Of a stretch of 38,671 nt of DNA, positions 961 through 28,825 are shown in pieces. The notes beneath the pieces were generated by a model, which saw only the letters and a list, made by a program, of their open reading frames with translations, did not search any database and had not been told where the DNA came from. The stretch is from a virus. Numbering within the stretch: position 1 is the stretch's first letter; every line of letters starts with the position of its first letter. The stretch is taken from positions 1 to 38,671 of IMG/VR virus record IMGVR_UViG_3300050821_006909; one strand, written 5' to 3'. A program made the position numbers and the translations under genes.

Positions 961-1424
961 AACGCATTCCGCTGACGCAAGGTAAGTTCGCCCTCGTAGA
1001 CGACGCTGACTACGAGGCGTTGTCACGTTTTAAGTGGTACCTTCAAAACGATGGGTACGCCGCACGGAATGTGATGACCCCTACGGGGCGCGGAACAGAA
1101 CTGATGCACAGGCGCATTGCAGGCGCGAAGCACGGCGACGACGTCGAAGTAGACCACCGCGACGTGGACAAGCTGAACAACTGCCGCGGCAACCTTCGGT
1201 CATGCGCTCGCGCAGAGAACCTGAGAAACTACCCGAAGCGTATCGACAACACGTCAGGCTTCAAGGGTGTGACCTTGCGCCGTGAGACCGGCAAGTGGCG
1301 CGCACGCATCGGCTTTCGGAATCGCTACATCAATCTTGGAACTTTCGACACCGCCGAATTGGCGCACGAGTTCTACTGTCTCGCGGCTGATATGCTGCAC
1401 GGCGAATTTGCGAGGCACGCGTAA
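957..1424 (+). CDS. HNH homing endonuclease with AP2 DNA-binding domain, 155 aa
   Basis: The central region has the HNH pattern: VDHRDVDKLNNCRGNLR, with the His/Asp pair around residue 62 followed by the N-rich loop. The C-terminal part (TSGFKGVTLRRETGKWRARI, then LGTFDTAELAHEFY) is a typical AP2 domain. Such genes are free-standing homing endonucleases that cut related genomes and spread themselves. It lies cleanly between small genes and the portal, overlapping both by a few bases, so its insertion disrupts nothing visible. Two other HNH genes occur in the window. Confidence 0.9.
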   Translation: MKRIPLTQGKFALVDDADYEALSRFKWYLQNDGYAARNVMTPTGRGTELMHRRIAGAKHGDDVEVDHRDVDKLNNCRGNLRSCARAENLRNYPKRIDNTSGFKGVTLRRETGKWRARIGFRNRYINLGTFDTAELAHEFYCLAADMLHGEFARHA

Positions 1425-3610
1425 TGGCCCGGAAAGGCGTAAAGAAGAAAGAGAAGTTCGAGGATTTGCCGGTTCTTGAGACCGTGGATAGCCGCGCCAT
1501 CGACGCAGAAAGGCTGGACGAGGAGATTGAGAATTGGGCGGAAGATCAAGGCTCCGACGCGTACATCGACGCGTGCAAGCTCTATCCGAAGATTCAGAAA
1601 AGCTACGAAAATAAGCAACAGCAGTCCGATTGGTGCGAAGAATATTACAATATTTACAACGCAAGGCCTGACGAGAACGCGCAGTACTCAGGCAACAGCC
1701 AGTGCTACGTCCCTGCCGTGCGAGACGCAGTCAATGCGCGGTGCAAGCGCACGTTAGCCACGCTGTTCCCCGCGAACTACAAACACGTCGATGCTGTAGG
1801 TCCGGCCTCAGTGACGCCCTACCCGACACTCGCGCTGCTTGAGCACTATATCCGCAAAACGAATCTTAAAGACATCGTTCGCGCCGACCTACTAGCAGGC
1901 GATGTTACCGGCCAGTGGGCGCTCTACGTCGACTGGATGCGCACCACGCGGCGCATTACCGAACTGGTGAAAAAACCTCCCCTGCTTACGGATGAGGAAT
2001 CCGGCGTTGAGGCAGAAGATATCACCGTTGATGAAGAATGGGATATCGAAGAGAAAGAGATCATCGATGAAATGCCGGACATCACGCCGATCTCGGTTGA
2101 CGACCTTGCGGTTTATCCGCCTACGGTGAACGACATCGAGAAGGCGACGGCTACGGCTATTCGTCTTCGTCTTACGAAAGAATCCGTTCAGCAGTTCATT
2201 GACGAAGGTGTATTCGTCGGTTGGAACGCTAAAGAGATCATGGACAATCTGAACGAACCGGACGGCGGGCGCCAAAAGCGCGTACCGAACAAGCGGCGCA
2301 CAGCGGACGCAGGGGTTCGGACAGAGGGAACGTACAAATACGCATTAATTTATGAAGTTCACACAAACCTCGAACTGGAAGAAGGCAAGGGCAAGGAGCC
2401 GTGTTTTGTCTACTACGCTGGCCCTGAGGTCGTTCTTGGCATTATCCGCAACCCATTTTGGTCTAAGAAGCGCCCGATCATCACCGCGCCGGTTGAGCGC
2501 ATCCAAGGCACGATCTACGGCATAAGCCGCATTGAGCCCGTCAAGTACCTGCAGTGGAATTTGAACGATTTCTGGAATATGGGAATGGATTCTGCGCAAT
2601 ACGCGCTTCTGCCTATTGTGATGACCGATCCGCTCGCGAACCCGAACTACCAGTCGATGGTAATGGGCTTGGCGGCAGTATGGCTGACGAACCCGCAAAC
2701 GACTGAGTTCGCGCAATTCCCGGCGATCTACAAAGACGCCGTAGGCCTGTGCAACGCCATCAAGTCGCAGATCCAAGAATCGATGGATGTGAACGACGCG
2801 ATGCTAGGCAAGGCGCCACCGGGCAAGAAGAACCAGGCGCAAGCCGCCGCGCAAGCGCAGTCGCAGGAGTCGAACATCATCGACCACGCCAAGCGCTATG
2901 AGGGCGTGATGCTGAACCCGCTGCTTGAACGCATGTTCGAACTCGATCGTCAGTTCCGCACGAAGGAATTGACCGTGGTCACGATGGGCGAAGTCGGCGC
3001 GCGCGCCAAGCAGGAAGAGATTCCCGTCCAGGCGTTCAGTGAGCGTTACTTCTTCCGCTGGTGCGGCACGGCCTATCAGACCGGCATGCAACGCATGCAG
3101 CAAATGATCGCGTGGATGAACGTGCTGCGCGGTGTACCGCCGCAACAGCTTGACGGGCGTCGCCTGAACGTCGGCCCGATCCTTGAGATGGGCACCGAGC
3201 AGATATTCGGACCAGAAGTGGCGCCGCGCATTCTGATCGATGAGCGCAACCTCTACCATGTCGAACCGTCCGACGAAAACCTGATGATGCACAACGGCAT
3301 GCCTGCCGAAGTGCATCCAGCGGATGACGACAAACGACACATTACCGAGCACATGCACGGCGCGCAGTTGACCGGCGATCCGCACGGCCTGTTCCGCGCG
3401 CACATTCAGGCGCACCAGCAAGCCATGCAGCAGAAGATGCAGCAGGCGCAAGGCCCGCAACCCGGCCAGCAAGGCGCACCGGGCGGCGCGGGTCCAGGCA
3501 TCGCAGGAACGCCGCGCCCCGGCGCGCAACCCGGCCAGCCGCGCCCGCAAGGGCCTCCAGGCATGGTGCACCCTGATCAGATGGCAGACCCGCAGGCGGG
3601 GCCACGATGA
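1424..3610 (+). CDS. portal protein, 728 aa
   Basis: Recognised from size, position after terminase and before scaffold/capsid, and sequence character. It has a charged N-terminus and a long alpha/beta core with aromatic-rich stretches (SDWCEEYYNIYNARP; VKYLQWNLNDFWNMGMDS), a helical region QAQAAAQAQSQESNIIDHAK matching the portal stem/crown style, and a C-terminal tail rich in Gln, Pro and Gly from about residue 660. The length fits podovirus portals of the P22-to-N4 size range. Portals form the dodecameric DNA channel at the head vertex and dock the terminase. ATG at 1424 overlaps the previous TAA by one base. The Pro/Gln/Gly tail is probably disordered. Confidence 0.85.
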   Translation: MARKGVKKKEKFEDLPVLETVDSRAIDAERLDEEIENWAEDQGSDAYIDACKLYPKIQKSYENKQQQSDWCEEYYNIYNARPDENAQYSGNSQCYVPAVRDAVNARCKRTLATLFPANYKHVDAVGPASVTPYPTLALLEHYIRKTNLKDIVRADLLAGDVTGQWALYVDWMRTTRRITELVKKPPLLTDEESGVEAEDITVDEEWDIEEKEIIDEMPDITPISVDDLAVYPPTVNDIEKATATAIRLRLTKESVQQFIDEGVFVGWNAKEIMDNLNEPDGGRQKRVPNKRRTADAGVRTEGTYKYALIYEVHTNLELEEGKGKEPCFVYYAGPEVVLGIIRNPFWSKKRPIITAPVERIQGTIYGISRIEPVKYLQWNLNDFWNMGMDSAQYALLPIVMTDPLANPNYQSMVMGLAAVWLTNPQTTEFAQFPAIYKDAVGLCNAIKSQIQESMDVNDAMLGKAPPGKKNQAQAAAQAQSQESNIIDHAKRYEGVMLNPLLERMFELDRQFRTKELTVVTMGEVGARAKQEEIPVQAFSERYFFRWCGTAYQTGMQRMQQMIAWMNVLRGVPPQQLDGRRLNVGPILEMGTEQIFGPEVAPRILIDERNLYHVEPSDENLMMHNGMPAEVHPADDDKRHITEHMHGAQLTGDPHGLFRAHIQAHQQAMQQKMQQAQGPQPGQQGAPGGAGPGIAGTPRPGAQPGQPRPQGPPGMVHPDQMADPQAGPR

Positions 3611-8380: not shown

Positions 8381-9802
8381 ATGAAATCCTTGCACAAACT
8401 GGGCCTCTTGTGGGCCTCGATGTTCCCCGGTGTAACTAACCAGTCCACCAGTTTTACGGCGGACGTGGAAGCGTACATTCAAGAAGAAGTCGAACCGCTT
8501 GCGCGCCGCCAACTGGTCGCATATCAGTTCGGAAAGCCGCTCAAGCTGGACACGAACCGCGGCACGACCTACACGGCCTCGCGCTATCAGCGTTTGCCGT
8601 TGCCGTTCGCGCCGTTGCAAGAAGGCGTCGCGCCCCCGGGCGAAGCGATGGCACTGCAACAAGTGTCCGCCACCGCGCAACAATGGGGCGATCGCGTCAT
8701 CATCACCGATGTGGCGAACCTGACCATCAAGCACCCCTTGTTCCAACAAGCGTGCGAATTGGTCGCGCTGCAACTGCCGGAAACGCTTGAGCGCAATACG
8801 TTCAACACGTTGCTCGCTACGACCCAGGTCAACTACGCCAACGGCAAGACGAGCCGCGCGAACTTGCTGGCGACCGACGTGATGACCCCGCACGAAAACA
8901 ACCGTATCGTGGGCTCCATGCTCACGTACGGCGTGCCGCGTTTCATGGGCGACGAGCGTGAAGACATGATGATTGAAGCGGGCGCTTACCGCGATCCGTC
9001 GAAGTCACCGGCTGTCATGCAGCACTACGTCGGCCTGATTCATCCGTTGTCCGCGCAAGACATGCGCGAAAACACGACCGTAGCTACCGCCTGGTCGTAC
9101 AGCGATGTGAACCGCCTGTACAACAACGAGCTCGGCCCGTTTGGCGGCACGCGTTTCGTTGAATCGAACCTGATGCCCTACTGGACTGGTGCCGCTCAGA
9201 TCAACGGCACGGCTTCCACGTCTGGCGGCACGCTCGCGACCAATGCGGGCTACCAGATCATCGTGACCGCAGCACCGGCTCAAACGTCGGTCGAACAGAT
9301 CATCTATCAGGTCTCCAGCGCGATCAGCGTCACGGGCCCGACGGGCTCGATCAGCGTTGTACTCCCGCAACTGGCTGGGTACATCTTCAACGTGTACATC
9401 GGCACGTCGGCCACCCCCGGCAACTTGGCTACCGCCATCGGCCTGGGCGTACCGGTTACCGGCCCGCTCGCTGGTCAGGCAACGCAGCTTCTGCCGAACC
9501 AGACCGTCACGTTGACGGGTATTGGCGTGGCGCAAACACCGCCTGCCGCACCGGCTACGGGCGTGAGCGTGTTCCCGACGATTTTCATCGGCAATCACTC
9601 GTACGGCCAAGTGTTGCTCGAAAACCCCGAGTTCCACTACCTGACGGGCGCTGACAAGTCGGATCCCCTGAATCAAACCCGCGTGGTATCTTGGAAAGTA
9701 TTTTATGGAAGTATCATACTGAACCAAGCATTTTTGGCTCGGGTTGAAGCTGGTTCTGCGTTCGCTCCGGGGTATACTGCCGGTACTGTGACAACCCCGT
9801 AA
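8381..9802 (+). CDS. major capsid protein, N4-gp56 family, 473 aa
   Basis: The N-terminal half shows the N4-gp56-type layout: YIQEEVEPLARRQLVAYQFG, then RYQRLPLPFAPLQEGVAPPG, GDRVIITDVANLTIKHPLFQ, and YVGLIHPLSAQDMRE. The expected fold is HK97-type. A segment at about residues 275-390 (NAGYQIIVTAAPAQTSVEQI to YIFNVYIGTSATPGN) looks like an inserted Ig/FN3-like beta domain before the conserved end (LENPEFHYLTG; RVVSWKVFYGSIILNQAFLA). It follows the scaffold gene after a 14-base gap containing AGAGGAAA. Confidence 0.85.
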   Translation: MKSLHKLGLLWASMFPGVTNQSTSFTADVEAYIQEEVEPLARRQLVAYQFGKPLKLDTNRGTTYTASRYQRLPLPFAPLQEGVAPPGEAMALQQVSATAQQWGDRVIITDVANLTIKHPLFQQACELVALQLPETLERNTFNTLLATTQVNYANGKTSRANLLATDVMTPHENNRIVGSMLTYGVPRFMGDEREDMMIEAGAYRDPSKSPAVMQHYVGLIHPLSAQDMRENTTVATAWSYSDVNRLYNNELGPFGGTRFVESNLMPYWTGAAQINGTASTSGGTLATNAGYQIIVTAAPAQTSVEQIIYQVSSAISVTGPTGSISVVLPQLAGYIFNVYIGTSATPGNLATAIGLGVPVTGPLAGQATQLLPNQTVTLTGIGVAQTPPAAPATGVSVFPTIFIGNHSYGQVLLENPEFHYLTGADKSDPLNQTRVVSWKVFYGSIILNQAFLARVEAGSAFAPGYTAGTVTTP

Positions 9803-14703: not shown

Positions 14704-15070
14704 TCCGATCTCGGCGGGGCTCGATCTCGCAAGCACTATCGTCAACAAGATCTGGCCGGACAAGTCGCAGCAGGAGCAGCAGCAACTTGCTGCCGTGCTC
14801 GCGATGGTTCAAGGCCAAATGGCGATTGATCAGGCCGAAGCATCGAGCACCGATCCACTGCAACACTGGCGCGGAGGCTTGGGCTGGGTTTGCGTGATGG
14901 GGTACTTCTGGAACTTCGTTGGCCAGCCTTTGACGAACGCCGTTGCGGTAGCGCTGAATCATCCGCTCGCGCTTCCCGGTTTGGATATCGGCCCGCTCGC
15001 CACGCTCACCCTCGGTATGCTCGGCTTGGGCGGCTTGCACGTGGCGGCTCAAATGAAAGGTGGTTCGTGA
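14693..15070 (+). CDS. holin of the 3-TM type (GTA-holin-like), 125 aa
   Basis: The sequence follows the family layout: MALDPISAGLDLASTIVNKI WPDKSQQEQQQ (amphipathic start), then GGLGWVCVMGYFWNFVGQPL and a C-terminal hydrophobic part (IGPLATLTLGMLGLGGLHVA). Proteins of this type are annotated as holins in gene-transfer-agent-like and many podovirus genomes. It overlaps the lysozyme gene and has its own GAGGG site. It would permeabilise the inner membrane and release the lysozyme. Confidence 0.8.
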   Translation: MALDPISAGLDLASTIVNKIWPDKSQQEQQQLAAVLAMVQGQMAIDQAEASSTDPLQHWRGGLGWVCVMGYFWNFVGQPLTNAVAVALNHPLALPGLDIGPLATLTLGMLGLGGLHVAAQMKGGS

Positions 15071-15630
15071 ACAATCTGGTAAAAATCGCTCAGGGTGTGG
15101 ACACGGCGCCGTTGCTCTTGGAGATCGCGCGCCAGCCTAATCTGTGGAACCGGCACTCGGTGCGCAAGACCGCGCCCGATACGCCGCATGCCGCGATGGA
15201 TGATATCTGGCTCCGGTATAACGACGAGAAGCCGTTCAAGGAATCGGGCGACTACTCGAAGTTCAACGACGAGCACGACGCCAAGTTCTACCCTGAGTGG
15301 TTCGCGCTCCCCAGCGCACGCCCGATCGTCTACAACCTCATGGCGCGCGTCTCGGCGGTGCGCCTGGGCGGTGTGATGATCACGCGCATACCCGCGGGCG
15401 GCAGGATCGAACCCCATGCGGACAAGGGCTGGCACGCGACGTATTACAATACGAAATTGTACGTAGTTCTGCAATCGAACCCACAATGCGTGAACCGCGT
15501 GGAAGACGAGCGCGTTTCGATGGCACCGGGCGAGGTTTGGTACTTCGATAACACGATAGAGCACGAAGTCACGAACGACGGCCCGGATGACCGGATCACC
15601 CTGATTGTCTGCTTGCGGTGCGAGCGATGA
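15067..15630 (+). CDS. Asp/Asn beta-hydroxylase-like Fe(II)/2-oxoglutarate dioxygenase, 187 aa
   Basis: GTG at 15067 overlaps the holin stop by four bases. The core carries the iron-binding pattern HxD...H: GGRIEPHADKGW has His117-Ala-Asp119, and WYFDNTIEHEVTNDG supplies His166; Arg176 in DDRITLIV fits the 2-oxoglutarate-binding Arg. This matches the aspartyl/asparaginyl hydroxylase branch of cupin-fold oxygenases. The substrate is unknown; possibilities are a host or virion protein side chain or a small molecule. Directly followed, with an ATGA overlap, by a small cupin. Confidence 0.85.
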   Translation: MNNLVKIAQGVDTAPLLLEIARQPNLWNRHSVRKTAPDTPHAAMDDIWLRYNDEKPFKESGDYSKFNDEHDAKFYPEWFALPSARPIVYNLMARVSAVRLGGVMITRIPAGGRIEPHADKGWHATYYNTKLYVVLQSNPQCVNRVEDERVSMAPGEVWYFDNTIEHEVTNDGPDDRITLIVCLRCER

Positions 15631-15902
15631 TCAGTTTCCACTCGGCGGGCGGCGTGCTCGCGCGCGAAGAAGCGCTTAAGGCGGGGTACGAAGTCGAAAA
15701 GCACCAGCACGACTACGACCACCTGAGCGTTTTATGCACGGGGTCCGCCATCCTGGAAGTGGACGGCGAGATGCAAGTTTTGCACGGCCCTTGCGTGATT
15801 GAAGTAAAAGCAGGCAAGAAACACCGAATTCAAGCAATATCCGATATCACATGGTTGTGCATCCACGCGGAAGCCGTTGCCGACCCAGCCACAAAGGAGT
15901 AA
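15627..15902 (+). CDS. single-domain cupin, 91 aa
   Basis: ATG at 15627 overlaps the dioxygenase stop. The motif VEKHQHDYDHLSVLCTG corresponds to cupin motif 1 with three histidines, and KAGKKHRIQAISDIT to motif 2, a likely metal site. The length equals one bare cupin barrel. Coupled translation with the dioxygenase suggests a shared pathway or a metal/substrate partner. No specific reaction can be assigned. Confidence 0.8.
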   Translation: MISFHSAGGVLAREEALKAGYEVEKHQHDYDHLSVLCTGSAILEVDGEMQVLHGPCVIEVKAGKKHRIQAISDITWLCIHAEAVADPATKE

Positions 15903-15905
15903 ATC

Positions 15906-16895
15906 ATGCCTTGGGGAGTCGCAGCAGCAGTAGGTGGCGCGGTTGTCTCGTCGGCGCTCGCGCCTAGCCCTTCCAGTGCGGGCACGGGAGCAGGGTCAAA
16001 CTATTACGACCCAAACAACATGGCGGCGGCGAACAGCCAGTGGGCGAACCAGAACACCGGTTCGTACGATACCTATAACCAGACTTCACCCCTTATCGCG
16101 GGCGCCGCTGGCCAATCGTTCAACCAAGGGCAAGCGGCGAACAACGCGTATGGGTGGGCGTACCAAAACGCAGCGGGTAACGCGGGCAACCAGTACAGCC
16201 AGCTCGGATCAAACTTGTCTGGCGCGTCGCAAGGCCTGATCAACGCTGGTCAGCAGGTCTTCAATACCGCGATGGATCCGCAGCAAGCGCTGTACAACCA
16301 GCAACTTCAGCAAACGCAAGACCAGGCGGGCGCCACGAACTCGATGTACGGGCTCGGGTCTTCCGCCGCGGGCGCGGGCGTCGCGAACCAGGCGACTAAC
16401 AATTTCAACCTCGACTGGCAGAATCAGCAGTTGCAGCGTCAGACGCAAGGGTTGCAGGCTTACGGTTCGGCGCTTGGGCAAGCGAGTCAGGTAGGCGCGC
16501 AGGGTGCGGGGTATACGCTCCAGGGCGGGCAGACTCCCTACGGAGTCGGTCAGACGATCGCGGGCGCGCCGGGGCAGCTTGGCAGCACGTACGCAGGGCA
16601 ATTGAACACGGGCGTGTACAGCCCTGCCAGCGCACAGCAGAGCCTCGATTCGAACTACTTGAGCCAAGGCAACTCCGCGATTCAGCAATCGAATACAGGC
16701 ATGTACAACGCCGCGAACAATCAGGCGAACAACTACGCCTCCGCTGCGTCCAACGCCATCGGCGGCTTCGGTTCGCAGTCACAGAACCTCGGGAGCTACT
16801 TCGGCGGAGGGGGTTCGACCTTTGGGAACAACTACGCGGGCACTGGCAACCAGTACTACACTGGCGGCGGCAACACTTACGGCTTTACTAGCTAG
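15906..16895 (+). CDS. Gln/Asn/Gly-rich internal or tail virion protein, 329 aa
   Basis: A hydrophobic Ala/Val-rich start (MPWGVAAAVGGAVVSSALAP) is followed by a chain strongly biased to Gln, Asn, Gly, Ala and Tyr (QQALYNQQLQQTQDQAGATN; NNQANNYASAASNAIGGFGS). It is the first of three large late genes after lysis, the place where podoviruses encode ejection proteins. The bias predicts a flexible or polymer-forming protein. No enzyme motif. Confidence 0.6.
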   Translation: MPWGVAAAVGGAVVSSALAPSPSSAGTGAGSNYYDPNNMAAANSQWANQNTGSYDTYNQTSPLIAGAAGQSFNQGQAANNAYGWAYQNAAGNAGNQYSQLGSNLSGASQGLINAGQQVFNTAMDPQQALYNQQLQQTQDQAGATNSMYGLGSSAAGAGVANQATNNFNLDWQNQQLQRQTQGLQAYGSALGQASQVGAQGAGYTLQGGQTPYGVGQTIAGAPGQLGSTYAGQLNTGVYSPASAQQSLDSNYLSQGNSAIQQSNTGMYNAANNQANNYASAASNAIGGFGSQSQNLGSYFGGGGSTFGNNYAGTGNQYYTGGGNTYGFTS

Positions 16896-16903
16896 GGGTC
16901 AAC

Positions 16904-18526
16904 ATGGCAGGAGAACCGGGCTGGGTCAACGCGTACCCCAACTTCCTCGCGATGCAGCAGCAGCAACAGGAAAAGAACATTCAGGCGTGGCAGTTCCAGC
17001 AAACGCAGCAGCAAGCTCGCCAGCAAGCAGCCGCGCAACAGGCGGCGGGAAACGCTTTGCCGCAGCTTCTGCAAGGCGGACAGGTGGCCGCGCAGCCGAC
17101 GCAAGGTCAAATGCCGCCCCCGCCACAGCCTCCGGCCCCCGGTCAGGCTTCAACGCCGATGCAACCCCCGCCCTCCGGCCCCGCTGGCGGGGGCATTCCG
17201 CCGTTGCCGCAAGGGCCTCAACCCGGCCAGGTGAATCGCCCGCCGATTCCTCCGGGCGGTGTGCCGCAGGGCGCAGCAGGCGCAATGCCTCCCCCCGGCG
17301 TGCCTCCTTTCAAGCCGATGCCGACCACGCCGCCTCCGCAACAGGCGGCTGCACCCGCTGCGATCACGCCTCCCCCGGCGCAAGCTCCACAACAGCAAGC
17401 GCAACAACCCCCCGCTGATGATCAGATGGAAGGCGGGTTCTCGCTTCAGCGGATCGTTCAGTCGGGGCAGAAGCAAGGGCTTACCGGTTCGGACTTGTGG
17501 GCTTACGTGAATACGTTTGAGCCCTACATGACCGCGCAGCAGAAAGCGAAAGCGGAACAGGTCAAGAATCAGATCGAGATCAAGAAGCTGGACGCAGAGA
17601 TCCAGGCGCACCAGATCGCGGCTTCGAATCAGCAGCTTTCGCTTCAGGAGCGAATCAAGCACGACGACGCGCTAGAACGACTGGCGTCACGGCGCGCGGA
17701 TATTCAGCAAGAGAATGTCGATGTCCGCAAGGGCAATGCAGGCGGGGGTGGGGCGCCCAGCGCTCCGGCGCCCGACATCACGCCAAACGCGCAGGGCGAG
17801 TTGCCGCCCCCGAAGGCGATCGGCGGGTTTTCCAGCCAAGCTATTCAGGCCTTGGCTGACGACTATGCTACGCGTGGACCGACCGCACTGGCCGGGTTCG
17901 GGTACAAAAATCTCCCTCCTGCCGCGCGTGCCGAGATCGTGAACTACGCGGCGGCGAAGAACAACCAGACTGGCGGCAACTTCGCCTCCAACAAGATCCA
18001 ATATGCCGCCGATACCGCAGGCGCGCGCGTGAACGCGCAGCAAGCCGCCAAGACAGACGCGGCAGCGAACGCCCTCACAAGTACAGGCGGCATTGGCGAT
18101 CAGTTCCAGAAAGCCATCGATGATTTGGGCCGCACGGGTCTCCCGATCGCGAACCAGGCGCAAATGCAAGCGCTTCGCCTTACGAATGATCCGCGCGTCT
18201 CGACTTACGATACAGCGGTGAACGGCGTTGTGTCCGAAGCCGCGCAGATCCTTGGGCGCGGTACGATCACCGTGAACTCGATGGAGGAAGCCCGCAAGGT
18301 CGTGGAAGGCTGGCATACCTCCGCGCAGGCGCGCGCGGGTCTCGCGCAACTCAAGCGCGAAGCCTCGACCACGGTCAAGGCGTCTAGTGAGGAAGTCGCG
18401 AAGTCGGCGGGCACAGCCAAGGGGCAACCGGGTATCAACGGCGCTCCGAAGGTGGGAACCGTTGAAGGCGGTTACCGGTTCAAGGGCGGCGATCCCGCGC
18501 AGCAATCTAGCTGGGAGAAACAGTAA
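16904..18526 (+). CDS. Gln/Pro-rich probable ejection protein, 540 aa
   Basis: Residues 1-70 are Gln-rich helix (MQQQQQEKNIQAWQFQQTQQ), about 70-180 are Pro/Gly-rich linker (MPPPPQPPAPGQASTPMQPP), and 180-540 are mostly soluble helix (EGGFSLQRIVQSGQKQGLTG; AEQVKNQIEIKKLDAEIQAH). The end reads GGDPAQQSSWEKQ, related to the WEKY motif of the next protein. Likely packed in the head and injected with DNA. The stop overlaps the next ATG by one base. Confidence 0.6.
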   Translation: MAGEPGWVNAYPNFLAMQQQQQEKNIQAWQFQQTQQQARQQAAAQQAAGNALPQLLQGGQVAAQPTQGQMPPPPQPPAPGQASTPMQPPPSGPAGGGIPPLPQGPQPGQVNRPPIPPGGVPQGAAGAMPPPGVPPFKPMPTTPPPQQAAAPAAITPPPAQAPQQQAQQPPADDQMEGGFSLQRIVQSGQKQGLTGSDLWAYVNTFEPYMTAQQKAKAEQVKNQIEIKKLDAEIQAHQIAASNQQLSLQERIKHDDALERLASRRADIQQENVDVRKGNAGGGGAPSAPAPDITPNAQGELPPPKAIGGFSSQAIQALADDYATRGPTALAGFGYKNLPPAARAEIVNYAAAKNNQTGGNFASNKIQYAADTAGARVNAQQAAKTDAAANALTSTGGIGDQFQKAIDDLGRTGLPIANQAQMQALRLTNDPRVSTYDTAVNGVVSEAAQILGRGTITVNSMEEARKVVEGWHTSAQARAGLAQLKREASTTVKASSEEVAKSAGTAKGQPGINGAPKVGTVEGGYRFKGGDPAQQSSWEKQ

Positions 18527-20034
18527 TGGCGGGCCCTTGGGAAAAATATGCTTCGCAAGCGACGGATAGCGCACCGCCGTGGGAGAAGTACGGCGCTCCG
18601 AAGACCGCGCAACCTACCGGCCTTTCCGCTTTGCCCCCCGAAGCCGGTGCTCCGCAAAACGCGGTGGATGCGAGCACGCAACCTGAAGACTCGCTCGTCA
18701 ACAAGGTGAAGGGCGTTGGCGAAGCTGGCGCGGCGCTCGCCACTGGCGCGGTAGCGGGTCCGGTCGGGCAGGCGTACGGCGCGGCCAAGGCGCTCACGAG
18801 CGGCAAGTACGGCACACAAGCGGGCGTAGAGGCGGGCGAGAAGGCTGGTTCGGAACTCACGAACAAGCTTACCTACCAGCCAAAGACGAAGACCGGGCAG
18901 GAAGCCGTAGGCGCAATCGGCAACGCACTGGATGAAAGCCGCTTGGCCGGTTTGCCTGTTGAAGGATCGGTTCTGAACCAGTTCGGCAAAGTTCCTGCCG
19001 CTGCCGCCGAAGCGGAAGGAGCGCTCAAGGCCGCGCCAAAGGCGATCGCGAAAGCCGCTATCGACAAGTTGCCGGGTATCGATCCCGAGACCGCGCAATT
19101 GGCGAAGGACGCGCACTCAATGGGATTCCGTCTGACGCCCGACCAGGTGATCGGCGGCAAGTACGCGAAAGCCTTGGGTGAAGGCGCGGCAGCGATCCCG
19201 CTATCGGGCAGCAATACGAAGTTGAACCAGAATGTGTTCAATCAGCAATTGGTGAAGCAGATCGGCGGCACGGGCGACAAGCTCACGCGCAAGACATTCG
19301 ACACTGCCATGAAGGCTTCGGGCTCAACCATTGGTGATATCGCGGAGCGCACACCCTTGCCGATCAAGCCTAACCTTGTTGCCGGGTTGCGCGAACACGC
19401 GCAGGGCCAATTGCCGGACGTGGCGAATGTGGTGAACCACTATGTCGATCTCGTGAATTCGCAAGCGAAGGATGGCGTGCTCGACGGCACGACTTTCCGT
19501 AAGATCAATACCGACCTCGGAAACCGCATTCGCAGCACGTCGAACGGTGACCTGAAGTTTGCCCTTAACGGCTTGCAGGAAGACCTGCTCGACGCGCGGG
19601 AGCCATATCTGTCCGCAGAAGACGCGAAAGCCTACAACGCCGCGCGCAAGCAGTACGCAATAGGGAAGACACTTGAACCGCTGGTAGCAAAATCACCAAC
19701 TGGCGACATCCCACCTTCTCTATTGCTCGGCGTGATCTCGTCCACGAAGTCGGGCAAGTCTGCTGTTGCGCGCGGTGCGGCAGGCGATCTCGGCAAGCTA
19801 GCCGATATCGGCCAACGCTTCCTGAAACAGAACCCGTCAAACGGTACGGCGGAGCGCAGTTGGGCGCAAGGCATTCCGGCCACGCTTGGCGGATTAGCTG
19901 GAGGCACCGCAGGAGCAGCGGGGGCGGGGGCAGGCGCCGCCGGAGGGCTGGCAGCGGCCTACGGTGCGGCTAACTTGTACAATCGCGTCGGGCCCGCCGT
20001 CACTCAGCAGTTAATCGACCGACCGCCCCGCTGA
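18526..20034 (+). CDS. probable ejection/internal virion protein with WEKY motifs, 502 aa
   Basis: The N-terminus carries two copies of a PWEKY motif (AGPWEKYASQ and APPWEKYGAP), which recurs at the start of large injected phage proteins. An Ala/Gly-rich stretch (GVGEAGAALATGAVAGPVGQ) could touch membrane. The middle is a helical domain (LAKDAHSMGFRLTPDQVIGG; DLGNRIRSTSNGDLKFALNG) and the C-terminus is a Gly/Ala hydrophobic segment (LGGLAGGTAGAAGAGAGAAG). The last 35 bases overlap the tail of a gene on the other strand. Confidence 0.65.
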   Translation: MAGPWEKYASQATDSAPPWEKYGAPKTAQPTGLSALPPEAGAPQNAVDASTQPEDSLVNKVKGVGEAGAALATGAVAGPVGQAYGAAKALTSGKYGTQAGVEAGEKAGSELTNKLTYQPKTKTGQEAVGAIGNALDESRLAGLPVEGSVLNQFGKVPAAAAEAEGALKAAPKAIAKAAIDKLPGIDPETAQLAKDAHSMGFRLTPDQVIGGKYAKALGEGAAAIPLSGSNTKLNQNVFNQQLVKQIGGTGDKLTRKTFDTAMKASGSTIGDIAERTPLPIKPNLVAGLREHAQGQLPDVANVVNHYVDLVNSQAKDGVLDGTTFRKINTDLGNRIRSTSNGDLKFALNGLQEDLLDAREPYLSAEDAKAYNAARKQYAIGKTLEPLVAKSPTGDIPPSLLLGVISSTKSGKSAVARGAAGDLGKLADIGQRFLKQNPSNGTAERSWAQGIPATLGGLAGGTAGAAGAGAGAAGGLAAAYGAANLYNRVGPAVTQQLIDRPPR

Positions 20035-20410: not shown

Positions 20411-20430
20411 AACTATAGCAGATGCAAAAT
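20411..20430 (-). promoter_or_regulatory. leftward extended -10 promoter element (site A)
   Basis: On the minus strand the sequence reads ATTTTGCATCTGCTATAGTT: TG-N-TATAGT is an extended -10 box. The same 20 bases occur at 31222-31241 in front of the rightward early genes. It lies 26 bases before the secreted-protein start and also overlaps the ATG of the ATP-grasp gene on the + strand. No good -35 box is visible, as often with extended -10 promoters. Confidence 0.55.
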
Positions 20431-21775
20431 GAAAATTCTAGTAATTGATGTAGCCAGCAATGCGCTTGACCTCTGCCAGCGCTGGCAAGCGGCGGGGCAT
20501 GAGGTCAAGTGGTACGACAAACCGCGCGCTGACGGTGGCGTACGGCGTGCCGGTGAAGGGCTGGTAGAGAAGATCCGCGACTTTGACGAACTCCGCAAGA
20601 AGTGGATCGGGTGGGCGGATATGATCTACACGCCCGACAACACCTGCTACCTCGATTTACTGGAACCGTACCGCAGGATCGGCTACCCGATTTTCGGCTG
20701 CAACCTCGAAGCCGTGGAGATGGAGCTTGATCGAGAGCACGGGCAGCGCGTCATGGCGGAGTACGGTCTGAAGACCATCCCTGGCAAGACATTTCACGAC
20801 TACGATACCGCCGCTGCCTACGTGAAGAAGGAAGCCAAGGCGTTCGTGTCCAAGCCTTCGGGGGATGGCGAGCGCGCCATGTCCTACGTTTCGAACAACG
20901 CCGCCGATCTCGTCTACATGCTGCAACGCTGGAAGGGCGTGGACAAGTACCGCAAGGCGGCGAGAGACGAGGGCTTCATTCTCCAGGAGAAGGTGAACGG
21001 TGTCGCGGAGATGGCCGTGGGCGGCTGGTTCATTCCGGGCGTGGGCTTCTCGAAAGCGGGGTGGGTTGAGAACTTCGAACACAAGTCATTATTCGCCGGG
21101 GATCTCGGCGTGGCTACCGGGGAGATGGGCACTATCGTGCGCGTCGTGAAAAAGTCCAAGCTGGCGGACCTAGTGCTTAAACCCGTTGCCGATCACCTGC
21201 ATAAAATCGGGTACATCGGATACGTGGACGTGGCTACGATCATCGATGACAAGGGCGTGCCCTGGCCATTGGAGTTCACTATGCGCGACGGGTGGCCTAT
21301 CCGCCACAATCTGACCTCGCTAATCATCGGCGATCAGGCGCAATGGATGAAGGATGCTTGCGACGGTAAGGACACGCTTAAGATACGCACCGACGTTGTA
21401 AGCGCGAGTGTTGTAATGGCGCTCCCCGACTTCCCCTACTCCCACGTCACGAACCGTGACCTGTGTGGAATCCCGGTCTACGGCGCCGAAGACATGGAGC
21501 ATCTCCACTGGTCCGAGGTCATGATGGGCGTAGCGCCGCGCGGGGTGAACGGGAAAGTGGTTGACCTACCTGGCCCGGTCACCGCGGGCGATTACACCCT
21601 GGTCGCGACTGGCGAAGGCGCAACCGTGTCCGGCGCGCGGCGAAGCGTGTACGCAGCGATCAAAAAGGTTAAGATCCCGAATAGCCCGTTTTATCGAATC
21701 GATATCGGGTCCAAGATGAAGAAACAACTGCCCATTCTTCAGGCTATGGGCTTTGCTACCGGAATGGAGTATTGA
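20429..21775 (+). CDS. PurD-like ATP-grasp ligase, 448 aa
   Basis: The chain follows GAR synthetase (PurD, about 425 aa) end to end: N-terminal nucleotide-binding-like start (MKILVIDVASNALDLCQRWQ), ATP-grasp region with AKAFVSKPSGDGERAMSYV and FILQEKVNGVAEMAVGGW, DLGVATGEMGTIV in place of the PurD GPNTGGMG loop (Glu232 replaces Gly), PWPLEFTMRDGWP in place of LEFNxRFGDPE (Glu282 kept, Asn lost), and a C-terminal domain YTLVATGEGATVSGARRSVY then FYRIDIGSKMKKQ as in PurD. It should ligate a carboxylate to an amine using ATP; the altered loops argue for a changed substrate. There is no clear ribosome-binding site before ATG 20429. Confidence 0.8.
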   Translation: MKILVIDVASNALDLCQRWQAAGHEVKWYDKPRADGGVRRAGEGLVEKIRDFDELRKKWIGWADMIYTPDNTCYLDLLEPYRRIGYPIFGCNLEAVEMELDREHGQRVMAEYGLKTIPGKTFHDYDTAAAYVKKEAKAFVSKPSGDGERAMSYVSNNAADLVYMLQRWKGVDKYRKAARDEGFILQEKVNGVAEMAVGGWFIPGVGFSKAGWVENFEHKSLFAGDLGVATGEMGTIVRVVKKSKLADLVLKPVADHLHKIGYIGYVDVATIIDDKGVPWPLEFTMRDGWPIRHNLTSLIIGDQAQWMKDACDGKDTLKIRTDVVSASVVMALPDFPYSHVTNRDLCGIPVYGAEDMEHLHWSEVMMGVAPRGVNGKVVDLPGPVTAGDYTLVATGEGATVSGARRSVYAAIKKVKIPNSPFYRIDIGSKMKKQLPILQAMGFATGMEY

Positions 21776-21776
21776 C

Positions 21777-21938
21777 ATGCCGATGAAATCGAAAGCGCAA
21801 AACGCCGCCATGCATGCGGCAGCGGCGGGCCGCTCAGGCTTGGGCATCCCCAAGCGTGTGGGCAAAGAGTTCGTGAAGTCGCAAGTAGGCAAGTCGCTTA
21901 AGGGCTTGCCCGCCAAAGTTGCGAAGAAAAAGAAATGA
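21777..21938 (+). CDS. Lys-rich small protein, 53 aa
   Basis: ATG at 21777 lies one base after the ATP-grasp stop, with GGAG seven bases upstream; an upstream in-frame start inside the ATP-grasp gene is less likely. The product starts MPMKSKAQNAAMHAAAAGRS and ends LKGLPAKVAKKKK. It is strongly basic with a Lys4 tail. It resembles the small basic proteins before the portal in charge. It could be a DNA-binding virion component or a substrate of the adjacent ligase; both are speculation. Confidence 0.65.
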   Translation: MPMKSKAQNAAMHAAAAGRSGLGIPKRVGKEFVKSQVGKSLKGLPAKVAKKKK

Positions 21939-22468
21939 CTAGCGAGTCACGCCGCGCCGGACTCGTCTCCGAAGCTTCGATCAAGACTGCCCTCACCGAG
22001 GCCAAAGGCGACCTGTTTCTGGCCGCTTGCGCGCTCGGCTGTACCGCTCGTGAGGTCGACCAGTACGTGAGACGCTCCCCGGTCTTGCAGGCTCACGCTG
22101 GGGCTATCGAGCAGGTTAAAGTTGATCCAGCGTACTCGCGCATGAGCGTCGAGCAATTCGACAATCAGGTCGCAGATTTGGTCCGCTCGTTCCGGGTAGA
22201 CGGGATTAAGGAAGTCCATAAGCTGGCGACTATGGAATTTGGAGACAGTGCAGCCCTCGCCAAGGTTAAGCTCGATGCTGCGCTCGCGTTGAGTGCGGGT
22301 TCCCGGTCGAGTGTCGGAAACAGCGATACTGAGAACGCCCTGTCTGAGTTGAATGCTCTTTATCACGCAAATGCTCCAAGAATTAAAGAGATACGGCAAA
22401 CTGTGATTACGATGACAGATGGTCGGGAAGCGATTCCACAAGTAATCGAACATCGGCCAAGGACTTGA
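21935..22468 (+). CDS. helix-turn-helix protein, candidate small terminase subunit, 177 aa
   Basis: ATG at 21935 overlaps the previous stop by four bases. The N-terminus IKTALTEAKGDLFLAACALG CTAREVDQYVRRSP has the spacing of a Fis/terminase-like helix-turn-helix. A helical centre (VADLVRSFRVDGIKEVHKLA; AALAKVKLDAALALSAGSRS) could be the oligomerisation part. The size fits small terminases, and no other TerS candidate is visible. It lies at the end of the late block, about 14 kb from terL. The last 62 bases overlap a leftward gene. Confidence 0.5.
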   Translation: MTSESRRAGLVSEASIKTALTEAKGDLFLAACALGCTAREVDQYVRRSPVLQAHAGAIEQVKVDPAYSRMSVEQFDNQVADLVRSFRVDGIKEVHKLATMEFGDSAALAKVKLDAALALSAGSRSSVGNSDTENALSELNALYHANAPRIKEIRQTVITMTDGREAIPQVIEHRPRT

Positions 22469-23610: not shown

Positions 23611-24990
23611 TTATTTATGACGCTTCATCGCCTGAAGCAAAATGTCCTGCACCGAACGCTTGCTCTCAAGCCGTTCCAGCACGTCGAAATCCACCGTGTC
23701 ATTCGCCAAAATGTAGTGGATGAAAACCGGCCTGTTATGCCCTGCTTGCATCTGGCGAGTAGGGCCAATCCGTTCAATGATCTGCTGATGTTCTTCCAGG
23801 TTCCAGTTCACTGAGAAAAACACGATGATGTTGCCGCCATCCTGTAAGTTAAGGCCGTGGCCAGCACTAGCAGGATGAGCAAACAAAACCGGTATTTTCC
23901 CCGCGTTCCAGCTTCTAATAGTTTCTGGATCGGAATCAAGCACGCGGCCCCGAGGAAAAGCGGCGCGCAAACGCACAAGATCATGCTTAAAATGATAAGC
24001 GACAAGTACGGGGGCCCCTCCTGCCTCTTCGATAATGTCGTCAAGAGCGCTGATCTTCGCATCATGTACCTCCGTCCAGTTGCGCGCTTCATCGGTATAG
24101 ATTGCGCCGTTCGCGAGCTGCAAGCACTTCTGGGTCTTCGACGCCGCGTTCAGCGCTTCGACTTCCGTTGGCCCCAAATGCCCCTCCAGTTCCAGGAACA
24201 TTTTCTTTTCCATGTCCCGGTACTGCTGCCGCGCTTTGTGGGGCAGATCCACGATTATCTTGTTGCTTATAGGTATCTTCAAATCGAAGTAATCCCTAGC
24301 TTCGATACTCAGGCAAACATCGGCGAGTAGAGCCTGTATTTCCTTCTGCGAGTGCTCCATGGGCTCCAAGCCGTAACCGTCAAAGCTACTTCTGAACCAG
24401 CGCTGCGAGAACGCTGTAAAACTCTTCCCTAGGCGCTCGCCGCCGTCAACAAACCACATGGGGCCGTACAAATCTTTAAGCCCATTGGGCGCTGGCGTGC
24501 CCGTTAGCCCGATCCACCGTTCGACTTTCTTGTGGGCCACCTCAGCTAGTGCCTTCGCTCGCTTCGTACCTTGTCGCGTGCGAAACCCTTTTAGCTTCGT
24601 CACCTCGTCCGCAACAATCGTCTTGAAGGGCCACGGGCGGGGGTTGTACTTAAACCAGTCCACAACCCAGGGGACGTTTTCGTAATTCAGGGTATAGATG
24701 GCTGAATCTTCGCGCAGTGCTTGGGCGCGCTGCGCTGCATTTCCGACGACTGCCGTGATCGGCAAATCAAACCCCCACTTCTTCACCTCGTCCGGCCAGG
24801 TGCTTTGCGCGACACGAAGCGGAGCGAGAATAAGAATCGGCCCCTCCTCCACCAGTTGGAGCGTTTCAGCAGCGGCTAAGACAGACGCAGATTTTCCGGT
24901 GCCCATGCCTGAAAACACATTGCATCTCTCATGCTCTAGGATGTGGTCGATTATCAACTTCTGATACTCGCGCGGTACAAGGCTAGACAT
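23611..24990 (-). CDS. SNF2/superfamily 2 helicase, 459 aa
   Basis: Motifs in order: LVPREYQKLIIDHILEHER (Q-motif-like), SGMGTGKSASVLA (Walker A, residues 28-34), LILAPLRVAQSTWPDEVKKW (Ia), IVADEVTKLKGF (motif II at 128-131 as DEVT rather than DEAH), WIGLTGTPAPNGLKDLYGPM (III), VLVAYHFKHDLVRL (IV) and QQIIERIGPTRQMQ (VI). Phages carry such SNF2-like helicases beside a family A polymerase and VRR-NUC nuclease, where they likely act in replication or recombination. The start overlaps the HNH gene by eight bases. Confidence 0.9.
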   Translation of the reverse strand: MSSLVPREYQKLIIDHILEHERCNVFSGMGTGKSASVLAAAETLQLVEEGPILILAPLRVAQSTWPDEVKKWGFDLPITAVVGNAAQRAQALREDSAIYTLNYENVPWVVDWFKYNPRPWPFKTIVADEVTKLKGFRTRQGTKRAKALAEVAHKKVERWIGLTGTPAPNGLKDLYGPMWFVDGGERLGKSFTAFSQRWFRSSFDGYGLEPMEHSQKEIQALLADVCLSIEARDYFDLKIPISNKIIVDLPHKARQQYRDMEKKMFLELEGHLGPTEVEALNAASKTQKCLQLANGAIYTDEARNWTEVHDAKISALDDIIEEAGGAPVLVAYHFKHDLVRLRAAFPRGRVLDSDPETIRSWNAGKIPVLFAHPASAGHGLNLQDGGNIIVFFSVNWNLEEHQQIIERIGPTRQMQAGHNRPVFIHYILANDTVDFDVLERLESKRSVQDILLQAMKRHK

Positions 24991-25459
24991 TGTTCTTCAC
25001 CCCGAACTGCTTGTGGTATTTTTCAGCGGCCTCGTCGTAGGCCCGCGCTGCCTGCTCTTCGGTTTCAAAGCGGCCTAACGATATCTTCCTCCCATTCGTT
25101 TTAATCAGGGCGCGCCATTTCTGAGTCTGCTTTTCGAAATGAACGCCCTTGTGTTGCGAGCTGGCGCCTTCTAATTGCTTGACGCGATTGCAACAATTCT
25201 CAGCCTGAACGCAAGCGCGCAAGTTCTCAATTCGATTATTGAGGCGGTTACGATCCATGTGGTCGACTACTGCGGGCAAGTAGCCGTGATGCAGAGCAAA
25301 CGCCAAGCGGTGCGCGTAGATCATCCCGTGCACGCCTGCGTTGACCCGAAGATATCCCTTTCCGTGCGGCGACCCGCAAGGGCGTCCCGTGCTGTTGCGG
25401 GTCAAGATGCCGGTTTCGGGGTCGTACTCAAACAGCAAGCGAAGTGCAGGAATATTCAC
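24983..25459 (-). CDS. HNH homing endonuclease with AP2 domain, 158 aa
   Basis: MIYAHRLAFALHHGYLPAVV followed by DHMDRNRLNNRIENLRACVQ is the HNH core; the C-terminal SSQHKGVHFEKQTQKWRALI then LGRFETEEQAARAYDEAAEK is AP2. GTG start at 25459 overlaps the stop of a membrane microprotein (GTGA). Likely a mobile free-standing homing endonuclease inserted in the replication operon without breaking it. Differs clearly in sequence from the HNH-AP2 protein near the portal. Confidence 0.9.
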   Translation of the reverse strand: MNIPALRLLFEYDPETGILTRNSTGRPCGSPHGKGYLRVNAGVHGMIYAHRLAFALHHGYLPAVVDHMDRNRLNNRIENLRACVQAENCCNRVKQLEGASSQHKGVHFEKQTQKWRALIKTNGRKISLGRFETEEQAARAYDEAAEKYHKQFGVKNNV

Positions 25460-26220: not shown

Positions 26221-28277
26221 TCTTTTCTGTACCGATATCCTTCGAAACCGGCAGCGGCTAAGGGTAAATCGGGAGCCCAAGCCGGATTGGTCGCGAGTAG
26301 TCCTGACAAATGTTCGGCGTTGAACTCAGGCCGGTCGGGCGCGTAGCATATATCTTCGTCGTGGACCGGGAGTTTGATCTCGTACCCGGCATCCGTAATG
26401 CGAAATGCGTTCGCCTTGAACACATCGCGCGCTACAGCTTGCGTCATGTTTTCCACTAGCTTGCCGCCGTAGGTGCTGATCCTGGACCACTTGCGGCTGT
26501 ACTGGTTGATACCCATGAACGATAGCTTGCCATCTTCTACGCGCGGGGCGGGGTAGGACAACGATCGCCCGCTTGGCAGGATTATGCGCAACCAATTGCC
26601 TTTGCGAACGGCGATGCACTTGCCGATCGGGAACTCTTCCCCTTCCGAGAAAACCGCGCTTGCCGCCGAGCCTTCGGCCCAAGACCATAGGGCTTCCGTC
26701 TTGGGGTGCGCGCGGCGCCACAAGCGCTTGAGCGAATCGCAAGCGATGAACACTTCTTTCGGAAGGCCGAACGTAGGCCGTTTTTTGTCAATAGTCCAGT
26801 TCCAGAAGTTCTCCGCTTCGGCTACTACGTCGCGCGGTAACGACAAACCGGAAGTCATCTTTTCCAAGTCCAAGGCATATGCTGCGGCAAACGTCAGGAA
26901 CGCGCCTACGCCGCCCTGAAAGCCCATTGCTAGCTCCAAGACCTTGCCGACCTGGCGCCGCGCTTCTTCGATCGATACGCCGAAGGTCCGCGCGTAGGAA
27001 GCGAGGTACAGATCCGCACCGATCCCTGCATCGAAGTCCCGAAATGCTTGCAGCTTCCACTCTTCGCCTGCGAGCCATGCGAGCACGCGACCTTCGATGT
27101 TCGACAAGTCGGCGACTACCAGCTTCTTGCCCGGTGGCGCGATGATAACGCCGCGCATGGCGTTCGCGCACAACTCCATGACGTTATCCGTAATCAGGTC
27201 CGCACAACCCGCCTTGATGGCTTCTATGCCTTCGTCAATCTCTTCGGCGGGCAGCGTCGGGCGCATCAAGTTCTGTGGCTGGAATAAACGTCCTGCGTCG
27301 CGTCCAGTGCGCCCAGCCCCAGAGAACTGAATAATCCCGCGCAAGTAGCCATCGGAAGACGTAGAGCGCATCACGCGCTTGTACTTGCTCACCGATGACG
27401 TGGACGCCATCAAGCGCATTCCGATCAGGTCGCGAACACCATCCGGCAACGATGGGTCTTGAAGCCTTCTCTCAAGTGTGTCTGCCCGCATATCTGGCAG
27501 AAGTACTCCATGTTCAGCAAGTATGTGCTTAAGGAGCTTATCTCGTTGTGTCGCGGCAGTGACCTCGCCGCCTGTTGCTTCTGTAACATCTTCTGCAAGG
27601 CCGGTTTGCGCAATGTCAACGGCCTCAATCGCCTTGGCTGCGAGTTCAAGATCGACATATACCCCCGCTTGGTTGATTCGCTGATCGAGTTGCCATAGCT
27701 TCAGTTCGAACTCGTTGCTCGGATAATTCCACTTCGGCATTTTCTGGTGCAGCACGCGCATCGACGTGATATCCGACTTTGCGTACTCGATGAACTCCGT
27801 CCACTCGGCGGGGTGCGTCTCGCGAGTCTTGCGGCGTAGCTTGCTGTTCTTCGCTTGCGGTTTGCAAAAATACATAATCAACTGTCGACCTCGCTTGTTC
27901 TTGGCGAGATCAACGGGCAGGCGGAAAACATCGCACAGAGTATCTAGTTTTCCGGGCAACCCGTGGCACAGGGCCTGCACCATAGAATCTCGACGCTTCT
28001 CCGGCTTCATCTTCTTGTCCAAGAACGGGAGCGCATGTTTCAGCACTACATGGTCGAATCCGCCGCTGTGGTGCCCCCAGTATTCATCCGCCGCGTCTAT
28101 GGCTTCAACCAATTCGTCCGGGGGCAGAAGGCGCGAAGTTCTGTCCCAGCACCGCACCGGCCCATCGTTGACCGCCCACGCGAATAGCAACACCTCAGCG
28201 TTCTCAGCGTATCGATGAGACCCATCGGTAATAGGCGTGTCACAGAACGTTTCCAAATCAAAAAACAGAAGGTTCAT
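26217..28277 (-). CDS. family A DNA polymerase with 3'-5' exonuclease, 686 aa
   Basis: The N-terminal exonuclease domain starts MNLLFFDLETFCDTP (DxE) and ends with EYAKSDITSMRVLHQKM (YxxxD). The polymerase domain has motif A VVADLSNIEGRVLAWLAGE (Asp390), motif B RRQVGKVLELAMGFQGGVGA and motif C LPVHDEDICYAP (His639-Asp640-Glu641). This is the replicative polymerase of phages that also carry DUF2800, DUF2815, VRR-NUC and SNF2 genes. It overlaps the upstream HNH gene by 20 bases, and its stop lies in the 42-base palindrome. Confidence 0.95.
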   Translation of the reverse strand: MNLLFFDLETFCDTPITDGSHRYAENAEVLLFAWAVNDGPVRCWDRTSRLLPPDELVEAIDAADEYWGHHSGGFDHVVLKHALPFLDKKMKPEKRRDSMVQALCHGLPGKLDTLCDVFRLPVDLAKNKRGRQLIMYFCKPQAKNSKLRRKTRETHPAEWTEFIEYAKSDITSMRVLHQKMPKWNYPSNEFELKLWQLDQRINQAGVYVDLELAAKAIEAVDIAQTGLAEDVTEATGGEVTAATQRDKLLKHILAEHGVLLPDMRADTLERRLQDPSLPDGVRDLIGMRLMASTSSVSKYKRVMRSTSSDGYLRGIIQFSGAGRTGRDAGRLFQPQNLMRPTLPAEEIDEGIEAIKAGCADLITDNVMELCANAMRGVIIAPPGKKLVVADLSNIEGRVLAWLAGEEWKLQAFRDFDAGIGADLYLASYARTFGVSIEEARRQVGKVLELAMGFQGGVGAFLTFAAAYALDLEKMTSGLSLPRDVVAEAENFWNWTIDKKRPTFGLPKEVFIACDSLKRLWRRAHPKTEALWSWAEGSAASAVFSEGEEFPIGKCIAVRKGNWLRIILPSGRSLSYPAPRVEDGKLSFMGINQYSRKWSRISTYGGKLVENMTQAVARDVFKANAFRITDAGYEIKLPVHDEDICYAPDRPEFNAEHLSGLLATNPAWAPDLPLAAAGFEGYRYRKD

Positions 28278-28818: not shown

Positions 28819-28825
28819 AAGCAAA

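Follow-up and report, generated by a model that had tools for sequence, protein, structure and literature searches.

The late gene described here lies in a viral DNA of 38,671 nucleotides (IMG/VR record IMGVR_UViG_3300050821_006909, positions 1 to 38,671), which we call the window. Its product is almost certainly not PurD but a relative with the PurD fold and a changed substrate pocket and, judging by the residues that it keeps, this relative is probably still active. In many short-tailed phages the gene lies near those for DNA ejection and the head. There is strong evidence that the product is an ATP-grasp protein other than PurD, and its membership in the carboxylate-amine ligase class of ATP-grasp enzymes is well supported. 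The best explanation of its role, which we hold tentatively and as something short of probable, is that of an amide ligase, made late, that would modify an ejection protein or another protein of the virion; we infer its catalysis, its substrate, and its target.

Reading frame, fold, and family scores

The reading frame is exact, running on the plus strand from an ATG at 20429 to a stop at 21775 and encoding 448 amino acids. A chance ORF or a chance likeness is excluded, because a single family-profile scan returned 375 relatives in viral contigs and dN/dS in the gene family is approximately 0.03–0.08 in informative pairs, a sign of purifying selection. Contaminating host purD was considered and ruled out, the gene being 43–100% identical to relatives in phage late blocks. 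The remaining 14 INPHARED matches show 23–30% identity and are mostly unannotated records resembling bacterial purD.

An AF2 model of the protein (pLDDT 90.5, pTM 0.89) was compared with known structures. Foldseek matched it to 2yw2 (E 1.5e-27), and VIA, run with residues 1–435, placed A. aeolicus PurD at the top with a Z-score of 33.3, an rmsd of 3.3, and 399 aligned residues. PurD fills the first 13 rows of the VIA results (Z 33.3 to 28.9), and PurK, PurT, and biotin carboxylase come next with Z of at most 25.2; the 448-aa protein therefore has the full-length PurD fold. In the viral structure library BFVD, no full-length PurD-like match was found near the top, the best rows having TM values of 0.28–0.57.

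By sequence, the closest PDB match is also PurD (5vev, E 7.8e-14), and identity to PurD is approximately 20%. The Pfam family GARS_A passes its gathering cut-off (32.1 bits against 27), GARS_C falls under its own (27.2 bits against 34.8), and GARS_N gave no match in the Pfam scan. The TIGR00877 purD model aligns over 1–430 with 84.8 bits and does not reach its equivalog cut-off of 288. The preliminary description of this DNA had the protein covering all PurD domains, which holds for the structure and only in part for the sequence profiles.

Active-site residues compared with PurD

The roles of residues in A. aeolicus PurD, including the glycine residues D212, R287, and E292, are given in the part of PMC8880213 available to us, and were transferred to the window protein through its sequence alignment with PurD (5vev). 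Residues were counted in a viral set (137 distinct sequences), in 24 paralogues from cells or plasmids, and in 10 true PurDs. The viral set derives from 199 loci with a profile match, of which six were dropped for a late profile start or the lack of a nearby start codon; the 193 retained include five proteins from bacterial genome records (L132–L136), many near-identical proteins, and at least six loci that entered twice with differing flanking sequence (L250–L252, L254, L256, and L257), and merging identical proteins left the 137. The cellular and plasmid set includes three fragments (L146, L200, and L214), the last of which is responsible for odd letters at three sites.

The ATP residues K143, E192, and K214 of A. 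aeolicus PurD are retained as K142, E194, and K219, Glu 100 as E99, the Glu of the LEFN loop as E282, and the carboxylate-binding R287 as R286. Among the 137 viral sequences, E99, K142, and E194 are found in every one, and K219, E282, and R286 in 136 each. The protein thus has an ATP-grasp fold with the ATP-contacting Lys/Glu set, and the disrupted ATP site that would have spoken against a ligase is not what one finds: the ATP residues are present in 136 or 137 of the viral sequences, and in 133 at Q186.

Other positions have changed, and the changes divide the viral, cellular, and PurD groups almost perfectly. R102 is found in 137/137 viral sequences where PurD has K (10/10; K103 in A. aeolicus), Q186 in 133 where PurD has E (E185), E217 in 136 where PurD has D (D212), E232 in 136 where PurD has G, and T284 in 136 where PurD has N (N285). 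Position 289 is W in 131 and Y in four, against D in PurD (D290); position 291, which is I in the window protein and corresponds to E292 of A. aeolicus, has as its six commonest viral letters I (74), L (31), T (17), S (7), C (2), and H (2), against E in 10/10 PurDs. H360 is a further invariant residue, and with E217, E232, T284, and W289 it may line the pocket.

Of the three glycine residues only R287 is therefore conserved (R286), the D having become E and the E having become I, L, T, or S. Asn is the usual metal ligand in an ATP-grasp site, together with a Glu; here the Glu is retained and the Asn is replaced by Thr in 136/137 viral sequences. The GREH loop of PurD serves in the binding of phosphoribosylamine. 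The G(G/A)REH loop of the N-domain is missing from the viral sequences: R-E-H is present in 10/10 PurDs, whereas the viral sequences mostly have N/C, C/A/G, and L at these places, and R-E-H is absent among the letters listed for the 137. The PROSITE signature PS00184, given as R[LF]GDPEx[EQIM] in the portion of PMC3261824 that we could use, is absent as well; the window protein reads RDGWPIRH, and the D is W or Y in 135/137 viral sequences.

Two loop changes pointed out in the preliminary description are both present, TGEMG for the first and LEFTMRDGW at residues 281–289 for the second. Neither sequencing error nor a peculiarity of this phage accounts for them: they are common to the whole viral and cellular clade, and since such changes separate the groups across the entire set, TGEMG and EFT can be used as clade markers. 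What belongs to the phage branch alone is R[D/P]GW; cellular members mostly have RFG[Y/F]P.

The structure prediction and active-site comparison proposed in that description thus give a PurD fold in which the ATP residues are kept and the substrate residues are changed. On the residues, ATP activation of a carboxylate would appear to be retained and both substrates to have changed: the donor is probably not glycine and the amine acceptor probably not phosphoribosylamine, because the glycine-ammonium pocket and the GREH loop are altered. A ligase acting on some other substrate, as had been suggested, is probable, with the ATP site intact and the specificity residues of PurD replaced.

The family and its cellular paralogues

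Each scan supplied no more than 80 loci, and the loci examined are therefore a part of the 375 relatives from the first. Further scans added a second viral branch around MW202796, whose protein is 43% identical to that of the window, and more distant branches. A tree of 30 sequences separates PurD from all phage and cellular paralogues with support of 100/100; the cellular paralogues form one group (99/100), and the two phage groups are weakly resolved. With its TGE-x-G and E-x-T loops and its grouping apart from PurD, the window protein belongs to this clade of PurD-like paralogues.

Prophage-like copies occur in three Paraburkholderia genomes, among them P. tropica LMG 22274 and P. phenoliruptrix LMG 22037 (loci L132 and L134), and all three hold a PurD of their own; in a genus sample of 97 genomes for one of them, the match was in that genome alone. 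Chromosomal paralogues with approximately 30% identity are found in Patescibacteria-type, Bacteroidota, gammaproteobacterial, and archaeal genomes. Counting the starting genome, they occur in 4/198 genomes from the phylum to which the Ekhidna genome belongs and in 9/192 from that of the Pacebacteria genome. Among 21 paralogue-bearing cellular genomes, PurD scores above its cut-off in 12, has a match of 276.5 bits just below it in one, and is undetected in eight. PurM likewise had no match in seven of these eight and a partial match in the other; these absences are not proof, because the genomes may be incomplete. No shared neighbour was seen around the cellular loci inspected.

A haloarchaeal plasmid homologue (30% identical) has the same TGEMG and EFT loops; in the Halarchaeum CBA1220 homologue they read TGEMG and EFTPRFGYPT. 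In one small-genome bacterium, two copies of the cellular paralogue are adjacent (G441:C3:252249-254942). A distant relative on the Roseomonas plasmid p546-2 (L199) lies between type III polyketide synthase and aminotransferase genes, a placement that may point to a metabolite function in part of the family. Two viral copies, 75% and 83% identical to that of the window (L014 and L069), are on the same 79,073-bp contig, which probably represents two related phages joined or in tandem.

The late block and the position of the gene

The gene had been placed in a phage late block, and its surroundings agree: the portal, MCP, tail, and ejection genes lie upstream and share its strand. The plus strand carries, in order, genes for the portal, head, and tail, an Asp/Asn hydroxylase, a cupin-like protein, three ejection-block proteins, the PurD-like protein, and a 177-aa protein (Table 1); helicase, polymerase, SSB, and exonuclease genes follow downstream on the opposite strand. 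Neighbours were counted only in close relatives with enough flanking sequence.

Table 1. Features of the window in and around the late block (fractions are counts of close relatives with a homologue)
Feature	Positions	Strand	Evidence
Portal/head-tail connector protein	1424..3610	+	phrog_332, phrog_1216
Major capsid protein	8381..9802	+	phrog_1357, E 1e-40
Aspartyl/asparaginyl beta-hydroxylase-like protein	14890..15630	+	PF05118, E 8.5e-17; HxD...H...R kept
Small cupin-like protein	15618..15902	+	PHROG name "tail fiber adhesin"; cupin-like protein of a related locus, E 1.7e-23
First of the three ejection-block proteins	15906..16895	+	No family; 69/69
Second large late protein, ejection-type by position	16904..18526	+	No family; 73/76
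Third ejection-type protein, nearest large same-strand gene upstream	18526..20034	+	phrog_26400 (DNA ejection protein), E 9.3e-31; 52/83
PurD-like ATP-grasp ligase, 448 aa	20429..21775	+	Fold model, residues, profiles
177-aa helical protein, next gene downstream	21935..22468	+	80/80

Among 21 late-strand proteins of the window compared with PHROGs, 13 had no family match, and TerL was not seen at its left end. The 177-aa protein looks TerS-like by eye, an identity that is a guess, because its model is weak (pLDDT 67.7) and a fold search with this low-confidence model gave no significant match. HNH homing-type endonuclease genes are present at 957–1424, 24983–25459, and 28258–28824; in one other locus (L017), a gene related to the one at 957–1424 separates the PurD-like gene from the ejection gene.

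Across the viral loci, the PurD-like gene nearly always comes after the last ejection-type gene. An overlap of exactly 4 bp with the gene upstream is seen in 80/193 loci, namely in 33/108 of the close relatives, 36/48 of the second branch, 10/35 of the others, and 1/2 of the remainder. Among distinct junctions the overlap is found in 41/104, as against 73/799 neighbouring pairs (9%; Fisher p 5e-14) and 45/614 in a second baseline (p 1e-15); these baselines take longest-ORF starts or any start within 120 nt and are not perfectly like-for-like with the junctions. A gap of more than 200 nt separates the two genes in 44/193 loci. The window itself has no overlap but a 394-nt gap that holds small minus-strand ORFs: between 20000 and 20391 there is one of 98 aa with a hydrophobic stretch and one of 79 aa that begins like a signal peptide and ends in a Gln-rich tail. 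These ORFs are moron-like, and small ORFs occur at the same gap in other close relatives.

Other branches hold the position of the gene while the neighbours differ. In L092, L082, and L135, the PurD-like protein is 43–51% identical to that of the window, and no match to the second or third ejection-block protein of the window was found. For most lineages, the term "ejection" describes position, because PHROGs gave no family for five of eight ejection-type upstream proteins and only a ParB-like match for a sixth (L223); PHROGs identifies the upstream partners in L224 and L230 as DNA ejection proteins (E 9e-41 and 1e-31). In two remote members, from phages unlike that of the window, the gene adjoins a portal gene (L216) or overlaps a TerL gene by 4 bp (L217). 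A "ubiquitin" beside the block in MW202796 was set aside for want of Pfam support.

The Asp/Asn hydroxylase is found in the late block in 20/20 close records and in 61/62 loci, and also in some distant loci (L224, L241, L243, and L253). Its HxD...H...R residues are presumably those that bind iron and the co-substrate. In the second branch the hydroxylase was not found in the four records searched, and a GNAT gene is present in 13 of 18 loci with enough sequence. Co-occurrence links the hydroxylase to the ligase as a possible second virion-modifying enzyme, and suggests that the ligase and the hydroxylase or GNAT may form a protein-modification set in the late block.

What the enzyme may do

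If the PurD-like protein is an amide ligase of the virion, ATP would phosphorylate a carboxylate held by Arg286, and an amine would attack the acyl phosphate to give the amide. Made late, from the same strand as the DNA-ejection proteins and beside them, the ligase would add or join a small carboxylic acid, an amino acid, or a peptide to an ejection protein or another virion protein during assembly. Gene position is the one line of evidence that points to a virion protein as the target. The ancestral substrate cannot have been one, because the cellular paralogues have no virion proteins. The C-termini of the upstream proteins have no single motif conserved across lineages that would mark an attachment site.

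Several observations weigh against this explanation. A neighbouring position does not prove a shared pathway. MW202713 has an ejection protein that is 40% identical, but an unrelated protein stands at the place of the ligase, and tblastn of INPHARED found no relative of the PurD-like gene there, which counts against a tight functional bond between ejection protein and ligase. To these may be added the 394-nt gap of the window and the gaps of more than 200 nt in 44/193 loci, the merely positional sense of "ejection" in most lineages, and Thr at the place of the usual Asn metal ligand.

A more elaborate form of the same idea, which we regard as doubtful, is a widespread virion-maturation system of short-tailed phages. 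The PurD-derived ligase, whose translation would often be coupled to that of the last ejection protein, would amidate that protein, and the co-inherited Asp/Asn beta-hydroxylase (or GNAT) would act on the same virion proteins; the toolkit would have been recruited from a cellular PurD paralogue.

It is unlikely, though worth keeping in mind, that the enzyme is instead a fourth ejection protein, which would travel inside the head, leave it along with the DNA, and act on a molecule of the host as the next infection begins. The place of the gene at the end of the ejection block and the many 4-bp overlaps would suit such a role, some upstream partners are very large, one of them with a ParB-like segment (L223), and the sections of PMC5512222 at hand describe injected multidomain proteins. 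Against it, the protein is a compact globule of approximately 50 kDa, the L216 and L217 copies sit with portal or terminase genes, and no virion proteomics for the lineage was found.

The enzyme might also make a small metabolite, an amide or a dipeptide, possibly together with the Asp/Asn hydroxylase, for late use or for release at lysis. The stand-alone chromosomal paralogues of bacteria and archaea, the plasmid relative between polyketide synthase and aminotransferase genes, and the hydroxylases and GNAT proteins of the late block would all be compatible with this. We nevertheless judge it unlikely, since no metabolite pathway is seen around the gene and its position is fixed at the ejection genes.

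A catalytically dead protein, the PurD fold having been reused as a structural part of the virion, would fit a gene among virion genes; the near-invariant ATP-contacting residues and the low dN/dS argue against it and make it very improbable.

A working PurD that raises purine synthesis is the usual annotation of viral PurD, and the accessible text of PMC11097641, PMC11360552, and PMC12043954 reports viral PurD or GART as metabolic genes in viruses of the ocean, snow, and vents. The complete PurD fold agrees with this auxiliary role. The loss throughout the clade of the glycine-ammonium residues, the metal-site Asn, and the GREH loop does not, and we consider it highly improbable. That simple purine synthesis was doubtful had been said from the outset, and is borne out by the missed purD cut-off, the missing PROSITE signature, and the lack of PurF. 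The earlier remark that no other purine gene is present also holds: there is none among the window ORFs scanned, and PurF, searched for specifically, is absent from the window and was found in 0/33 viral records, most of 35–45 kb and of unstated completeness. The Paraburkholderia genomes with copies, moreover, have their own PurD.

Modification of a DNA base or nucleotide, an idea of the preliminary description for which ATP-grasp ligases are chemically able, deserves almost no credence, since the thymidylate-synthase family (PF00303) was found in 0/33 viral records, none of the window ORFs scanned is a base-modification gene, and the gene sits with virion genes, the replication genes being on the other strand or distant. 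The lack of PurF and thymidylate synthase and the PurD of the three Paraburkholderia genomes together make both purine supply and base modification unlikely. Of the targets originally proposed, DNA is thus unlikely, a metabolite is as judged above, and a virion protein is favoured by the position of the gene.

Relation to known systems

With PurD (TIGR00877; 2yw2, 2xcl, and 1gso), the phage protein shares the full-length fold, the ATP lysine, the ribose Glu, the catalytic Glu, and the carboxylate Arg. It differs in that the glycine-ammonium residues, the metal-site Asn, the RFGDPE signature, and the GREH loop are replaced, in its identity of approximately 20%, and in the lack of pathway partners. 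Closer are the cellular paralogues, which have the TGEMG and EFT loops, have lost the signature Asp, and fall on the same side of the 100/100 branch; they differ in having RFG[YF]P where the phages have R[DP]GWP, and in being chromosomal or plasmid stand-alone genes. "Extra" haloarchaeal PurD-like proteins, rrnAC0307 and Hlac_1553, were judged not to be GAR synthetases in the excerpt of PMC3261824 used here; the loops of the haloarchaeal plasmid homologue fit with these two proteins, which we know by description only.

Two phage systems are comparable. The R2K ATP-grasp peptide ligases are, as far as the consulted parts of PMC4431377 and PMC7824862 go, also phage-carried and predicted to modify proteins; they form a separate ATP-grasp clade according to both papers, a distinction that we take from description only. 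The amidoligase/ATP-grasp genes of LUZ24-like phages likewise place an ATP-grasp gene in a podovirus; in the extract of PMC3890496 that we used, the gene encodes 291 aa and belongs to an early module with other amidoligases. While the ligase class is known, a literature search turned up no account of a PurD-like gene among phage ejection genes, nor of a branch of PurD paralogues with a fixed place beside them.

Significance

Several surveys list viral "PurD" among the genes of purine metabolism. The window member passes the GARS_A cut-off and would enter such counts despite lacking the PurD substrate residues. If modification of ejection proteins is true, it would be a new step in the assembly of short-tailed phages, with ejection proteins matured post-translationally by a dedicated phage toolkit. 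The phage branch would also offer a handle on the uncharacterised cellular PurD paralogue, which is present even in reduced genomes without detectable PurD.
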